From contig NZ_JAUHPX010000001.1 of assembly GCF_030418305.1 (NCBI RefSeq), forward strand, positions 310,001 to 374,000: DNA of 64,000 bases, written 5' to 3'. The translations under genes were made by a program, and so were the position numbers. Every line of letters begins with the position of its first letter. Position 1 is the stretch's first letter. Shown here piece after piece: positions 1,567-12,543 of this stretch. The notes beneath the pieces are model-generated. The model saw nothing but the letters and a program-made list of their open reading frames with translations. It was not told where the DNA came from and ran no database searches. This DNA comes from Demequina lignilytica (GTDB lineage Bacteria > Actinomycetota > Actinomycetes > Actinomycetales > Demequinaceae).

Positions 1567-2304
1567 ATGCCGGGAGAGGCCCTGAGAGCCCGCGGGCGCG
1601 CCACGAGCGCCGCGGATCGACGCTCCGCGCTCTGGCTGCTCGTGGGGAGCCTCGCGGTGCTCCAGTTCGCGTACCCCGCGACCCTCGACGGACGGCTGTG
1701 GACCCTCCTCTACCTGTCCGTCTACATCGGGCTCGTCGTCGTCGCCGTGCGCATCGGCGCCGCCGACCCGCGACGCTTCTGGCCCCTCGTGGCGGCCGCC
1801 GCCGCCCTGGTCGCCGGCGCGACCTGGTTCGCGGTGCAGCAGGACGACCTCGCCGCGACGCGCGCGATGCTCGCGGGTTCGTTCCTGCTCCAGCTCGCGC
1901 TCATGGTGGCGCTCCTCGACGCGCTGGTCCATCCTCCCGCGCACGCGACGGTCACCGACCTCATCCTGGTGGCCGTGGCGATCTATCTGCTGTTCGGCGG
2001 CGTGTGCGGCCTCCTCTCCGCCCAGCTCGAGCTCGCCGCCCCGGGGAGCTTCGTCGACCAGACGGCGTCGGGAGAGCCGCTGGCCTGGCAGGGCCTCATC
2101 TACGGCAGCTACGTGACGCTGACCACGCTCGGCTTCGGCGACATCGTGCCGCTGGCCCCGTGGGCACGTGCCCTATGGTCGTTCGAGGCCGTGGTCGGGA
2201 CCCTCTACCTCGCGATCGTCATCGCGCGCCTGGTGGGCCTCGGCGGGAGCCATACGTGGCTCCGCGGCAGGGACACCCGAGCGCCCGGTCCTGACGAGCC
2301 CTGA
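1567..2304 (+). CDS. Two-pore-domain-type potassium channel family protein
   Basis: A 245-residue membrane protein with about six hydrophobic segments. Near the C-terminus is a pore loop, YVTLTTLGFGDIVPLAP, with the TLGFGD selectivity filter, followed by a last transmembrane helix. This is the Ion_trans_2 pore architecture, so a role as a K+-selective (or monovalent cation) channel in the cytoplasmic membrane is likely. No cytoplasmic RCK or cyclic-nucleotide domain follows, so gating is unknown. The ATG is exactly 6 nt after a TAGGTT -10 box (1555-1560), so the transcript is probably leaderless and this start is favoured. Confidence 0.8.
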   Translation: MPGEALRARGRATSAADRRSALWLLVGSLAVLQFAYPATLDGRLWTLLYLSVYIGLVVVAVRIGAADPRRFWPLVAAAAALVAGATWFAVQQDDLAATRAMLAGSFLLQLALMVALLDALVHPPAHATVTDLILVAVAIYLLFGGVCGLLSAQLELAAPGSFVDQTASGEPLAWQGLIYGSYVTLTTLGFGDIVPLAPWARALWSFEAVVGTLYLAIVIARLVGLGGSHTWLRGRDTRAPGPDEP

Positions 2305-2791: not shown

Positions 2792-4507
2792 CTAGCCGAC
2801 CGGGGCGTGGTCGGTGTTGTCGCGCTCGGCCTGATAGTGGTCGATCGCCGCCGCACCCGGGTGATGCAGGTCGAACGCCGGACGCTCCGAGCGGATGCGC
2901 GGGATGGACGTGAAGTTGTGGCGCGGCGGCGGGCAGGACGTCGCCCACTCGAGCGAGTTGCCGAAGCCCCACGGGTCGTCCACCGTCACCTTGGGCGCCC
3001 GCTTCGAGGTGATGTACACGTTCCACAGGAACGGCAGCGTCGAGAGCGCAAGCACCACGGCGCCGATGGTCGACAGCTGGTTCATCCAGGTGAAGCCGTC
3101 CTCGGGCAGGTAGTCGACGTAGCGTCGCGGCATGCCCATCGCGCCCAGCCAGTGCTGGACCAGGAAGGTGGTGTGGAAGCCGAAGAACAGCAGCCAGAAG
3201 TGCACCTTGCCCAGGCGCTCGTTGAGCATCTTGCCCGTGAACTTGGGCCACCAGAAGTAGAAGCCCGCGAACATCGCGAACACGACCGTGCCGAACACCA
3301 CGTAGTGGAAGTGCGCGACCACGAAGTAGGAGTCGGACAGCGGGAAGTCGAGCACCGGCGAGCTCAGGATGATGCCGGTGAGGCCGCCGAAGAGGAAGGT
3401 GACCAGGAAGCCGATCGACCACAGCATCGGTGTGTCGAAGGTGAGCTTCCCTCGCCACATGGTGCCGATCCAGTTGAAGAACTTCACTCCGGTCGGCACC
3501 GCGATGAGCATGGTCATGAAGCCGAAGAACGGCAGCAGGACCGCGCCGGTGACGTACATGTGGTGCGCCCACACCGTGACCGACAGCGCCGCGATCGCGA
3601 TGGTGGCGTACACCAGGCCGTGGTAGCCGAACAGCGGCTTGCGGCTGAACACCGGGAAGATCTCCGAGACGATGCCGAAGAACGGCAGCGCGATGATGTA
3701 CACCTCGGGGTGGCCGAAGAACCAGAAGAGGTGCTGCCAGAGGATGGCGCCGCCGTTGTCAGGGTTGAACACCTGGGAGTGGAGCACGCGGTCCGAGCCG
3801 AGCGCGAAGAGCGCCGAGGCCAGCGGCGGGAACGCCAGCAGCACCAGCATCGACGTCACCAGGATGTTCCAGGTGAAGATCGGCATCCGGAACATGGTCA
3901 TGCCCGGCGCGCGCATCGTCACGATCGTGGTGATGAAGTTCACCGCACCGAGGATGGTGCCGAAGCCACCGAGCGCGAGTCCGAAGACCCACAGGTCGCC
4001 GCCGACGCCCGGCGAGTAGACCGAGTTCGACAGCGGCGCGTACGCGAACCAGCCGAAGGATGCGGCGCCCTGCGGGGTGAAGAACCCCGCCATGGCGATC
4101 ACGCCGCCGAACGCGTACAGCCAGTACGCGAGCATGTTGAGGCGCGGGAACGCCACATCGGGCGCGCCGATCTGGAGCGGCATGATGAAGTTCGCGAAGC
4201 CCGCGAACAGCGGGGTGGCGAACAGCAGCAGCATGATCGTGCCGTGCATGGTGAACAGCTGGTTGTACTGCTCGGCGGACTGGACCACCTGCATGCCCGG
4301 CTCGAACAGCTCCGCGCGGATCAGCAGCGCGAGCAGGCCGCCGACCACGAAGAAGAAGAACGACGTGATCAGGTACATGTACCCGATGGTCTTGTGGTCC
4401 GTGGTGGTCAACCACTTGATGACGATCGAGCCGCGCTTGGTGGGCGCGACCGGGACGGACACCTGGCGGGCGGCGTCGCCGCCGGCCTCGTACGAAACCG
4501 TGGCCAT
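2792..4507 (-). CDS. ctaD: Cytochrome c oxidase subunit I
   Basis: A 571-residue heme-copper oxidase catalytic subunit with twelve membrane helices. It reduces O2 to water at the heme a3-CuB centre and pumps protons. Visible key residues: low-spin heme ligand H88 in FTMHGT, and the CuB/proton-channel signature HPEVY (H266, E268, Y270), which marks an A1-type oxidase; the later HFHYV pair supplies heme ligands. The start codon overlaps the ctaC stop by one base (TGATG), implying translational coupling. The soluble C-terminal tail is of usual length. Confidence 0.97.
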
Positions 4508-5382
4508 CAGGAATCAGCCTCCTCGTGCTCCTCGGTGAGCTGGACGACCTGATCGCGCGAGTACTCCTCGACGCCGATCTGCCCGGTGTAGCCCTCGTTG
4601 CGCAGCTCCTCCATGTGAGCGTCGTACTCGTCGCGGGAGACGACAGCCACGTTGAACAGCATCGACGCGTGGTACTCGCCGCACAGCTCGGCGCACTTGC
4701 CCTGGTACATCCCCTCCTGGGTGGGGATGATCTGGAACGTGTTGGTCCGGCCCGGGATGACGTCCTCCTTGTAGAGGAACGCGGGCACCCAGAACGAGTG
4801 GATGACGTCGCGCGAGTCGAGCGTGAACTCGACGCGCTCGCCCACGGGGAGGTACAGCGTCGGGAGCGTCTCCTCGACGCCCTCCTCGCCCGTCAGGCTC
4901 GCCTGGACACCGGGGTCGTACACGTCGTCGTCGACGTAGTTGAAGTCCCAGCTCCACTGCTTGCCGACCACGTTGATGTGGATGTCCGGGGTCTCGGACG
5001 TGTCCTTGATCGCGGAGATGTCCTCGACCGTGTACTTGAACAGCACGCCGATCATCAGCAGCGGGACGATGGTGTACATCAGCTCGAGCGGAACGTTCGC
5101 CCTGGTCTGCAGCGGGAGCTTGGTGTCTCCCTTGCGCTTGCGGTACACGATGACCGCCCAGAGGATCAGGCCCCAGGTGATGACGCCGACGGTGAGCGCG
5201 GCGATCCAGGAGCCGTTCCAGAGCGTGATGATCCGCCCGGTCTGGTTGGTGATCTCAGGGGTGCTGGGAAGGGCGCCGTTCTCAATCCCGGTGGAGCAGC
5301 CGGCGACCAGGGACGTCAGTCCCAGGGCGAGGGCTCCTGCCAGGGCTTTTCCGAGCGCGCGGGGACGCGAAATCGAGGACAC
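4507..5382 (-). CDS. ctaC: Cytochrome c oxidase subunit II (lipoprotein, CuA site)
   Basis: The 291-residue protein begins with a lipoprotein signal ending in LVAGC (C29), then two membrane helices and an extracytoplasmic cupredoxin domain. The CuA ligands are seen in [12 protein letters not shown] (C230, C234, H238). It accepts electrons from the cytochrome c domain of the bc1 complex and passes them to CtaD. The GTG start is supported by a TACACT -10 box (5389-5394) exactly 6 nt upstream on this strand, so the ctaCDF mRNA is probably leaderless. The promoter is back to back with that of the next gene on the plus strand. Confidence 0.95.
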
Positions 5383-5414: not shown

Positions 5415-6548
5415 ATGCAGGCCGCCCGCATGTTCCTCGACGCCAGTGGTTCCTCCCCTATGACGAATCGGGCGCTGGAAGCGTTCCAGGCGGGCCTCGC
5501 CGACGGCTGGGCGGACCCGACGCGGCTCCACTCGGAGTCGCGGCGCGCGCGCCAGCTTCTCGACGGTTCCCGCGAGGCGATCGCGGACGCCCTCGATGCG
5601 CGTCCCGAGCAGGTGCACCTCACCGCCTCCCCGCACCTGGGGCTCGAGCGCGTCATCGCCGGGGTGTTCGCGGCCCGGCGAGGCCGCGGCCGGATCGTCG
5701 CCTCCGCCGTGGAGCGCGACGCCACGCTCCACGCCGCCGACTACGTCAGCGGCGGGCGCCTCGCGACCGTTCCGGTCGATCGCGACGGGCACGTCGACAT
5801 CGAGGCGCTCGGCGCCGAGCTGGCCGACCCGGACGTCGCGCTCGCCGCGGTCCAGCACGGCAATCACGAGATCGGGACGCTGCAGCGGCTCGACCGTGTG
5901 CACGCCGCGACGTCCGCGGCAGCCGTGCCTCTCATCGTGGACGCCACCGCGAGCATCGGCCACGTCCCCGCCCCCGAGCGATGGGACGCGTTGGTCGCGA
6001 ACCCGGCGGACTGGGGCGGCCCCCAGGGCATCGGCGTGGTCGCGCTACGCCCCTCGACCCGGTGGCTGCCCGTGTGGCCCGAGGGCGACGACTGGGCGCC
6101 CGGCGGCGTCAGCGTCCCGGCCGCCCTGGCGGCGGCCGTGGCGCTGCAGGAGCGGCTCGAGCAGCTGGACGCCGTGGGCGCGCGGCTCGGGGCGCTGATC
6201 GACCACGTCCGCGCGCGGGCGACCGACTGGCCCGGCGTCGACGTCGTCGGCGATCCCGCGGAGCGGCTCCCGCACGTGGTGACGTTCTCCTGTCTGTACG
6301 TCGACGGGGAGGCGCTCCTGACGCGCCTCGACCGCGAGGGCATCGCGGTCGGCTCCGGCTCCGCCTGCACGACCAGCACGCTCGAGCCGTCGCGCGTGCT
6401 CGCCTCGATCGGTGCGCTCAGCCATGGGAACGTCCGGCTCGGTCTGCACCCGGGCGTCGGCGAGGCGGACATCGAGCGCTTCCTGGCGCTGATGCCGCGC
6501 ATCCTCGGCGACCTGCGCGACGAGGCCGGGGCACCGGACCTTGGCTGA
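5415..6548 (+). CDS. Cysteine-desulfurase-like (class V aminotransferase fold) protein without a PLP lysine
   Basis: A 377-residue NifS/IscS-fold protein. The family transfers sulfur from cysteine to a catalytic Cys, using PLP bound to a lysine. Here the sulfur-carrying Cys motif SGSACTTS (C318) and the PLP-stacking region (HGNHEIGT, VDATASIG) are present. The Schiff-base lysine, normally in SAHKxxGPKG, is replaced: the aligned stretch NPADWGGPQG has D199 at that place. The whole translated protein contains no lysine at all. The gene overlaps a TusA-like sulfur carrier by 8 nt, suggesting a sulfur-transfer or regulatory pair. A TACGGT -10 box 6 nt upstream supports the start. Family assignment is good; normal desulfurase activity is doubtful. 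Confidence 0.75.
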   Translation: MQAARMFLDASGSSPMTNRALEAFQAGLADGWADPTRLHSESRRARQLLDGSREAIADALDARPEQVHLTASPHLGLERVIAGVFAARRGRGRIVASAVERDATLHAADYVSGGRLATVPVDRDGHVDIEALGAELADPDVALAAVQHGNHEIGTLQRLDRVHAATSAAAVPLIVDATASIGHVPAPERWDALVANPADWGGPQGIGVVALRPSTRWLPVWPEGDDWAPGGVSVPAALAAAVALQERLEQLDAVGARLGALIDHVRARATDWPGVDVVGDPAERLPHVVTFSCLYVDGEALLTRLDREGIAVGSGSACTTSTLEPSRVLASIGALSHGNVRLGLHPGVGEADIERFLALMPRILGDLRDEAGAPDLG

Positions 6549-6816
6549 GGATCGCGCCTCCGGCGGGGACGATGCGTCGCCGTCCGGCGCGGCCGACGTC
6601 ACCATCGACGCGACGGGGCTGCTGTGCCCTCTGCCGATCATCGAGCTGGGCCGGGCGGCGCGCGGGAGGGCGCCCGGCACCACGATCACGGTGGTCTGCA
6701 CCGACGTGGCGGCGCGTCTCGACGTCCCCGCATGGGCCCGGATGACGGGCCACGAGTTCGTCGGGGAGACGAAGACGGACGGCGGGGCCGTGGCCCTCAC
6801 CGTCCGTCTCCTCTAG
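6541..6816 (+). CDS. TusA-family sulfur carrier protein
   Basis: The core of this 91-residue protein, from about residue 19, matches the SirA/TusA fold: VTIDATGLLCPLPIIEL with the CPxP motif (C29 the persulfide-carrying cysteine). The family passes sulfur from a cysteine desulfurase to acceptors such as tRNA thiolation or molybdenum cofactor enzymes. The first 18 residues are an acidic, poorly conserved leader. The start is a TTG overlapping the upstream desulfurase-like gene by 8 nt; a later start cannot be excluded. The physical coupling suggests it is the partner of that protein. Confidence 0.8.
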   Translation: MAEDRASGGDDASPSGAADVTIDATGLLCPLPIIELGRAARGRAPGTTITVVCTDVAARLDVPAWARMTGHEFVGETKTDGGAVALTVRLL

Positions 6817-6858: not shown

Positions 6859-7212
6859 TCAGCTGAACGAGTCTCCGCATGCGCACGAGCTCGACGCGTT
6901 CGGGTTGTCGATCGTGAAGCCCTGCTTCTCGATCGTGTCCGCGAAGTCGATCGTGGCGCCGTCCAGGTACGGGACGGACATCTTGTCCACGACCACTCCG
7001 ACGCCGTCGAAGTCGCGGATCGCGTCCCCGTCGAGGGTGCGCTCGTCGAAGTACAGCTGATAGATGAGGCCGGAGCAGCCTCCCGGCTGCACCGCGAGGC
7101 GCAGGCGGAGGTCGTCACGACCCTCCTGCTCCAGCAGGCTCTTCACCTTGGCCGCTGCGGCATCGGTGATCACGACGCCGTGGGACTTGGTCTCGGTCGC
7201 AGTCTCGGTCAC
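6859..7212 (-). CDS. erpA: Iron-sulfur cluster insertion protein (A-type carrier)
   Basis: A 117-residue A-type Fe-S carrier that delivers clusters to apo-proteins. The three conserved cysteines are present: C46 in GGCSG, and C110 and C112 in SSCACG close to the C-terminus. The frame is open for another 31 residues upstream, but the GTG at 7212 is preferred because a GAGGAGG site lies 5 nt before it and the upstream extension looks non-homologous. In actinobacteria this gene commonly lies near the cytochrome oxidase genes, as here. Confidence 0.92.
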   Translation of the reverse strand: MTETATETKSHGVVITDAAAAKVKSLLEQEGRDDLRLRLAVQPGGCSGLIYQLYFDERTLDGDAIRDFDGVGVVVDKMSVPYLDGATIDFADTIEKQGFTIDNPNASSSCACGDSFS

Positions 7213-7323
7213 TGGCGCCTCCTCTCTCTCGGTTACGGGACCAGCGTACGCCGCGGCGCGGACATTCCCCACCCCCGGCGCGCGATTCGTTGATGGATCA
7301 TCCACCGGCGAACAGGAACCGGC

Positions 7324-11643: not shown

Positions 11644-12543
11644 TCAGCCCGCAGCGGCGATCTCCAGGATCCGGGCGGCGGCCGGGGCCAGTCGCCTGCG
11701 GGGATCCCACACCGCGGCGAGGGGGCGCACCAGCGCCGGCCCGTCGACGCGGACCCGGACCAGGCGTCCGGCGGCGACGTCGTCGCGCACCGCGCGCTCG
11801 CTCAGCGCCGCCACGCCCCCACCGGCGAGCACCGTGGCGCGGATCGCCGCGGTGGTCGACAGCTCGGCCGCGGGAGCGGCGACGGAACCCGGACCCAGCA
11901 TCGCGGCGAGCGCGCTCTCGAGGGTGAGCCGCGTGCCGGAGCCGGGCTCGCGGTTCAGGAGCGGCGTGCGCGCCACCTCCGCGGCGGAGACGGAGGTCCG
12001 GCGCGCCCACGGATGCCCGGGCGCGACCACCACGACCACCTCGTCACGCGCGACCACGAGCGCGGCGAGCCCGTCGGGCGGATCGGGGGTCTCGACGAAG
12101 CCGAGGTCGTCCAGCCCTGCGCGGACTCGTTCCTCGACGACCGCGCTGTTGATGGCGGTCAGCTCCACCTGCGCCGCGTCGGGATCGCGGCCGTAGGCCA
12201 CGAGCCATCCGGGAAGCAGGTGCTCGGCCACCGTCAGGGACGCCGCGATCCGCACGTGTGCGGTGGCATCGGCCCGCAGCGCGGCGACCGACGACTCGAG
12301 GCCGTCCGCCTGCGCGAGGACGGCCGCCGCCCATCCCGCGATCAGCGCACCGTGGTCGGTGAGCCCGGTGCCTCGCGCGGAGCGGGCGAAGAGCGGGAGC
12401 CCCCACCGGCGCTCGAGCGCCCGCATGCGCTGCGACACCGCCTGCTGGCTGACGCCGAGCTCCTGCGCCGCGCCGGTGAGGCTGCCGTGCTGCTCCACGG
12501 CGACCAGCATCCGCAGCTCCTCGAGCGAGGTCCGCATGCCCAC
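11644..12543 (-). CDS. LysR-family transcriptional regulator
   Basis: A 299-residue LysR-type regulator: an N-terminal winged HTH (about residues 8-66, with TGAAQELGVSQQAVSQRMRALE) followed by a periplasmic-binding-fold effector domain. It is divergent from the TDT-family transporter next to it, with only ~80 bp between the start codons, so it most likely controls that gene. The effector is unknown. An AGAGGAG ribosome binding site precedes the ATG. A CTACAAGCGTAG inverted repeat in the gap is a candidate binding site. Confidence 0.9.
   Translation of the reverse strand: MGMRTSLEELRMLVAVEQHGSLTGAAQELGVSQQAVSQRMRALERRWGLPLFARSARGTGLTDHGALIAGWAAAVLAQADGLESSVAALRADATAHVRIAASLTVAEHLLPGWLVAYGRDPDAAQVELTAINSAVVEERVRAGLDDLGFVETPDPPDGLAALVVARDEVVVVVAPGHPWARRTSVSAAEVARTPLLNREPGSGTRLTLESALAAMLGPGSVAAPAAELSTTAAIRATVLAGGGVAALSERAVRDDVAAGRLVRVRVDGPALVRPLAAVWDPRRRLAPAAARILEIAAAG

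Follow-up and report, generated by a model that had tools for sequence, protein, structure and literature searches.

Sulfur enters Fe-S clusters and thio-cofactors through cysteine desulfurases, whose relatives are annotated by fold. According to PMC7585200, IscS of A. fulgidus is inactive as a desulfurase and provides a Cys ligand for the cluster of IscU, and the essential lysine is absent from M. acetivorans IscS1. Rv3778c of M. tuberculosis is described in PMC12910592 as a lysine-less and only distant relative of cysteine desulfurases that is likely noncatalytic, perhaps functional. In the IscS-TusA complex of E. coli, as described in PMC2854127, the Cys of TusA and that of the IscS loop come together in trans, across the dimer. 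The passages of PMC8300815 consulted hold nothing on lysine-less forms, and a literature search on lysine-less desulfurases and on an actinobacterial desulfurase-TusA pair, with papers outside subscription as its scope, showed no report of the family treated below among the papers listed.

Here we present a lysine-less NifS-like gene of Demequina lignilytica, a member of a genus placed by NCBI in the family Demequinaceae (f1) of the order Micrococcales. The gene lies in the window, that is, the whole stretch of 64,000 nucleotides that was analysed (G000:C1:310001-374000). The original prediction held that the internal aldimine is used by all class V aminotransferases; A. fulgidus IscS, M. acetivorans IscS1 and Rv3778c are reported exceptions.

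The NifS-like protein of the window

The gene (5415..6548, forward strand) encodes a NifS/IscS-fold protein of 377 residues, which matches Aminotran_5 (PF00266) with 103.2 bits against a gathering cut-off of 21.5. The AlphaFold2 model, built from 68 sequences, has a mean pLDDT of 94.5 and a pTM of 0.92; the tip of the Cys loop (residues 319-321) is the sole run of three or more residues with a pLDDT under 50. A Foldseek search returned IscS/NifS structures, with M. tuberculosis IscS (4isy, TM 0.91) at the top and A. fulgidus IscS at ranks 9, 12, 13, 19 and 21. The NCBIfam equivalog cut-offs (NifS, IscS, DndA and others) were not reached, the best match being NifS TIGR03402 with 180 against 530.75 bits.

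Regarding the residues that mark an active cysteine desulfurase (IscS/NifS, EC 2.8.1.7), the sulfur-carrying Cys of the mobile loop is present as Cys318 (codon TGC, 6366..6368, forward strand) in SGSACTTS. The position of the PLP lysine is occupied by Asp199 (codon GAC, 6009..6011, forward strand) in NPADWGGPQG, whose counterparts in the alignment are Asp in 4eb5 and Lys in 4r5f. Comparison with orthologues places Arg101 (5715..5717, forward strand) at the site of a His that we take to be the one stacking on PLP. Fold, length, Asp199, Cys318 and the absence of any lysine had all been stated in the original prediction and were confirmed; its statement that an internal aldimine cannot form is supported, with Asp199 at the site and no lysine elsewhere. 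An artefact or frameshift is ruled out by the open frame of 377 residues and by the same residue in the named relatives, which are Demequina records at 64-80% identity to the window protein. The protein is thus very probably not an ordinary PLP desulfurase.

The total absence of lysine was considered as a remarkable feature in itself and dropped, because the family is Lys-poor and zero is only mildly unusual. From the composition of nine neighbouring proteins, 8.1 lysines are expected in 377 residues and the probability of none is about 3e-4, an estimate that ignores family composition; two of the nine neighbours counted are also Lys-free. Within the columns up to residue 370, lysine is wholly absent from 51 of 93 Lys-less orthologues, and the catalytic Lys is the sole one in 12 of 35 Lys-bearing orthologues. 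The Lys-free proteins nearby, named by eye, are ion-channel-like (window 1567-2304) and a LysR-type regulator (11644-12543). The meaningful event is the loss of the catalytic lysine, which is common to all 75 orthologous places found in the order.

Distribution, phylogeny and selection

These places were obtained by a profile search (A1) of 297 genomes of the order, in which 74 genomes yielded 75 places scoring at least 321 bits; after a gap, the scores resume at 276 bits. The site was read in all 75 places and holds Lys in none; the alignment with orthologues that had been proposed as a check thus returned a conserved loss, and the search for hidden Lys-bearing orthologues in the order with profile A1 found none among the 75 places at or above 321 bits. 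Within the genus the orthologue is present in 44/44 genomes (the copy of G012 is cut by the contig end), with Asp at site 199 in every one. No match of at least 321 bits was found in 223 of the 297 genomes of the order, so that the distribution outside the genus is patchy.

The Lys-less carriers span seven families of the order. Over all Lys-less rows, those of other orders included, the variants found at position 199 are D, S, A, T, G, E and M. Within the order, families f9 and f12 have Asp or Glu, f1 has Asp or Ser, f15 has Ser or Ala, and f5, f17 and f18 have Ser, Gly, Thr or Ala. Three genomes from two other genera of the family f1 contribute four more copies, with Asp (L052, L055) or Ser (L053, L054). 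Two Lys-less copies, L055 (G046, Asp) and L148 (G271, Glu), are very long-branched and have kept the Cys; the G271 match has one in-frame TAG. One in-frame stop was flagged by the searches in five places of the order (G031, G027, G007, G001 and G271), where the open reading frames read are 366-374 residues long, which puts the stops at the C-terminal end.

Fifteen loci of the lower-scoring group, below the gap, were read as candidate orthologues and rejected: HK is present in all and an adjacent CtaC match in none, which identifies them as paralogues. L223, L226, L227, L228 and L232, which belong to other families of the order, each have a Lys-bearing NifS paralogue close to a NadA match (NadS-like), again without CtaC. 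Matches were found in 193 genomes of other orders of the class, and 38 orthologues were read, most of them chosen for the highest scores and the rest as one or two representatives of other families; the lysine is present in 35 of the 38 and absent from three (L155, Ala; L156, Met; L157, Ser).

In a tree of 107 rows, from which the trait columns had been left out, the order is represented by 65 rows, which form one Lys-less clade (SH-aLRT 91, not starred). The minimum number of changes in lysine state is four, including A. fulgidus, and is also four in a tree of 47 rows; both trees are quick ones. L155, L156 and L157 are set apart from the Lys-less rows of the order in the free tree, and a single clade of all Lys-less actinobacterial rows was not rejected (p-AU 0.214; 47 rows, simpler model). 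Adding A. fulgidus to that clade was rejected (p-AU 0.021; 47 rows, simple model), and the Lys-bearing actinobacterial orthologues sit between A. fulgidus and the Lys-less actinobacterial rows. Judged from these trees, the lysine loss is separate from that of A. fulgidus IscS.

The Lys-less gene is under purifying selection. Values of dN/dS (Nei-Gojobori) are 0.047-0.256 in 14 Lys-less pairs, ratios being rough where the synonymous distance exceeds 1; for comparison, two Lys-bearing pairs gave 0.106 and 0.122, and CtaC and ErpA (five pairs each) 0.016-0.214. Three TusA pairs are higher, at 0.24-0.37. A decaying relic without function would agree with the missing catalytic lysine, the drift of other PLP residues and the absence of the gene, above threshold, from 223/297 genomes of the order; set against this ratio range, the retention in 44/44 genomes of the genus, the invariant Cys318 and the conserved synteny, it is an extremely improbable explanation. 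A pseudogene is likewise contradicted by dN/dS and by retention across the genus. The original prediction would have been countered by a lysine in close relatives together with decay of this copy; the loss proved to be conserved, and no sign of decay was seen.

Genomic neighbourhood and cofactor site

The NifS-like gene is followed on the forward strand by a TusA-like sulfur carrier (6541..6816, TTG start), whose Cys29 (6625-6627), in CPLP, is the Cys of the CPxP motif. Its match to PF01206 has 61.5 against 28.6 bits; the NCBIfam TusA equivalog cut-off was not reached (37.6 against 78). The two reading frames overlap by 8 nt, provided that the TTG start is right. On the reverse strand, the divergent neighbour at a distance of 32 nt is CtaC, cytochrome c oxidase subunit II (4507..5382, named by eye from its translation), and the convergent neighbour is an ErpA/HesB-type Fe-S carrier (6859..7305, named by eye; the true start is probably inside the open reading frame).

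The Lys-less places of the order are mostly at one locus, ctaDC / nifS-like-tusA / erpA. In a context set of 65 loci of at least 6 kb, with some genomes represented twice, 61 have a CtaC match next to the gene, the four others being L052, L054, L158 and the outgroup L119. Downstream, 58 of the 65 show an ErpA match; those without one are L054, L158 and L119 together with L130, L133, L149 and L154, the last four having about 2 kb or less of downstream sequence. The CtaC/ErpA neighbourhood is common to the Lys-bearing orthologues and therefore supports orthology, and by itself gives no pointer to function. Genes between TusA and ErpA in six loci look, by eye, like Aat and a PfkB-type kinase, which we take to be no specific partner.

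A TusA with its Cys stands beside the gene, or is fused to it, in all 35 Lys-bearing orthologues and in 58 of the 93 Lys-less ones. Regarding the other Lys-less rows, no TusA was found in 31 within the 0.7-1.2 kb read downstream, two have a TusA-like frame lacking the Cys, and two end at a contig edge. In L053 (G045) and L054 (G044, second copy), which have Ser199, the loop is altered (GVGCSC and GCGCTC) and the TusA-like neighbour is without Cys, a further step in the same direction. Within the genus, a TusA-domain match was found in 36/44 genomes and was undetected in the other 8, one of which is only 50% complete; all 8 carry the Lys-less protein with GSGSAC, so that a relay to TusA is not its sole or essential role. 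The tree (103 rows, 17 of them lacking TusA) requires at least 10 changes in the presence of TusA.

The coupling to TusA that had been proposed from the window thus stands as a frequent and probably ancestral pairing, and fails as a general rule at the 31 rows and 8 genomes without a TusA. The first reading, in which the protein is dedicated to docking or relay with the adjacent TusA, would be in line with the 8-nt overlap, with the Cys-bearing TusA at so many of these loci and with the IscS-TusA complex known in E. coli (PMC2854127); it is nevertheless unlikely, given these missing or Cys-less partners and the repeated changes on the tree. The pattern fits repeated loss of TusA after the donor had lost its lysine, the NifS-like protein presumably being kept for another use.

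Other sulfur sources are present in the genome of the window, namely SufS with SGHK, a SufU-type gene beside SufS, and an IscS-like enzyme with SAHK. The single NifU_N-type match of the genome adjoins SufS on another contig, away from the window locus. A second NifS-type match (E <= 1e-20) was found in 42/44 genomes of the genus, with HK in the three that were read (L002, L057, L058). Serine palmitoyltransferase, in which LCB1 pairs with LCB2, is a precedent for a heterodimer, and the window protein, which has the fold of the dimeric IscS, could in principle be a subunit whose active Lys is supplied by such a Lys-bearing IscS-type paralogue. The two proteins of the window's genome are only about 31% identical and lie on different contigs, and we consider this arrangement decidedly improbable. 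A second TusA domain of the genome (L177, G000:C12:118740-118937) lies in a long frame that by eye is a FAD oxidoreductase-rhodanese-TusA-DsrE-type fusion and might relay sulfane sulfur through several domains. Of the 44 genomes of the genus, 33 have a TusA match in an unlinked open frame of 490-950 residues, the architecture having been read in G000 alone.

Regarding the cofactor site, Cys318 is Cys in 99/99 readable Lys-less orthologues. Asp176 and Glu152 are found in 93/93 Lys-less rows, Asn150 in 92/93 and Arg341 in 91/91. There are 104 columns in which the 35 Lys-bearing orthologues are at least 95% conserved; in 44 of these, at least 95% of the 90 Lys-less rows from the order share that residue. 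The kept columns include Ser314-Gly-Ser-x-Cys318, Pro325-Ser326, Gly338-Asn339-x-Arg341, Asp176, Glu152 and Pro286-His287, and the lost ones Gly73-Thr74, His101, Ser196, Ala197 and Lys199. By IscS numbering, we take the lost set to be the PLP phosphate loop and the stacking His, and the retained set to be the ring-nitrogen Asp, the Asn and the carboxylate Arg.

Across f1, f9 and f12, Thr74 remains in 16/68 rows and Ser196 in 2/68, and His101, Gln179 and His198 in none of the 68; His101 is still present in 22/29 rows of the other Lys-less families. As read from these alignments, the dismantling of the PLP site differs by lineage. Lys199 is paired with His101 in 35/35 Lys-bearing orthologues, and an acidic residue 199 with Arg101 in 70/70 rows, related rows not being independent. 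In f1, the two copies with Ser199 carry Ala or Ser at 101, and Arg101 occurs in five rows from other families in which residue 199 is not acidic. The pairing of Asp199 with Arg101 suggests a charge pair in the emptied cup.

Lysine-less PMP dehydratases work without an internal aldimine. An enzyme of this kind would hold PLP or PMP non-covalently through Asp176, Asn150 and Arg341, residues that presumably contact the PLP ring or the substrate in IscS, and would use Asp199 or Arg101 as acid/base. The near-complete retention of these three contacts and the strict pairing of Asp/Glu199 with Arg101 speak for it; Thr74, Ser196, His198 and Gln179 are lost or variable, as is His101 in f1, f9 and f12, and position 199 varies between families, unlike a catalytic residue. 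On balance we regard a PMP-type enzyme as quite unlikely.

Proposed role and comparison with known systems

The loss of the PLP lysine, with the Cys kept, in carriers of seven families points to what is probably a sulfur or Fe-S partner protein and not an enzyme. Our preferred reading, to which we give an even chance, is that of a PLP-free Cys-loop protein for docking or relay, derived from a cysteine desulfurase. That Cys318 still serves sulfur or iron-sulfur, as relay or as ligand, is an equally balanced proposition. An actinobacterial orthologue of the cysteine desulfurases would have lost the PLP lysine in the ancestor of the carriers of the order, and most of the PLP-phosphate cup would have been lost later. 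Covalent PLP and a desulfurase activity of its own would be absent, the IscS-type fold and probably the dimer would be kept, and Cys318 on the mobile loop would be presented to partner proteins. In one version, the protein would take a persulfide from another desulfurase of the cell and hand it to TusA where present; SufS and the IscS-like enzyme, both with Lys and in the same genome, are the candidate donors. In the other, Fe-S handling would employ Cys318 as a ligand, a role reported for the Cys of A. fulgidus IscS. In the lineage of the window, the emptied cup is probably closed by an ion pair of Asp199 and Arg101.

Several observations count against the PLP-free docking or relay protein. 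Asp176, Asn150 and Arg341 are fully or nearly fully kept, although a purely structural protein would have no use for them, and the stacking His persists in most rows of the other Lys-less families. The gene is missing, at the threshold of 321 bits, from about three quarters of the genomes of the order. With TusA dispensable, and ErpA and CtaC also found beside Lys-bearing orthologues, no conserved partner explains its persistence.

A wider and more tentative proposal, to which we give somewhat less than an even chance, is an ancient conversion of a PLP enzyme to a cofactor-free protein, with the cup dismantled, sealed by Asp and Arg in one lineage, and the Cys invariant. Such proteins would form a self-standing class for thiol or Fe-S handling, able to outlive TusA, that may serve ErpA or oxidase maturation. 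Proteins of seven families score to desulfurase models although the normal chemistry is impossible for them, so that fold-based annotation can overstate desulfurase content. The series of Lys, Asp, Ser and Ala at a single syntenic locus amounts to a natural experiment that can show what the desulfurase fold still requires after the loss of catalysis, and the question of what the invariant Cys does makes the non-enzymatic role proposed for A. fulgidus IscS testable in actinobacteria.

Among known proteins, A. fulgidus IscS (4eb5, 4eb7 and 4hvk; D199K variant, 4r5f) is the top PDB match by sequence, with 137.7 bits versus 136.6 bits for the cysteine desulfurase 9wep. It shares with the window protein the NifS/IscS fold, the Asp at the exact position of the PLP lysine and the loop Cys, so that the window protein shows the A. 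fulgidus-type combination of a Lys-to-Asp exchange with a retained Cys. However, A. fulgidus IscS has kept the TSGAT phosphate motif and the stacking His, both of which the window protein lacks, and it is archaeal and acts with IscU, whereas the neighbours in the window are TusA, CtaC and ErpA. M. acetivorans IscS1, archaeal as well and one of several IscSU pairs, and Rv3778c are likened to the window protein by description; Rv3778c is presumably at a different locus. E. coli IscS with TusA (3lvj) has the same fold but is an active PLP enzyme with Lys206. The Lys-bearing actinobacterial orthologues share the ctaC locus and the Cys, at about 44-51% identity to the window protein, but have the PLP Lys (mostly in HKWGGP), His101 and a TusA in every case, fused in some. 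Compared with the known Lys-less cases, the family described here is of separate origin, old, common to all carriers found in the order and ancestrally paired with TusA, and its PLP site is, by residue comparison, further dismantled in the lineage of the window.
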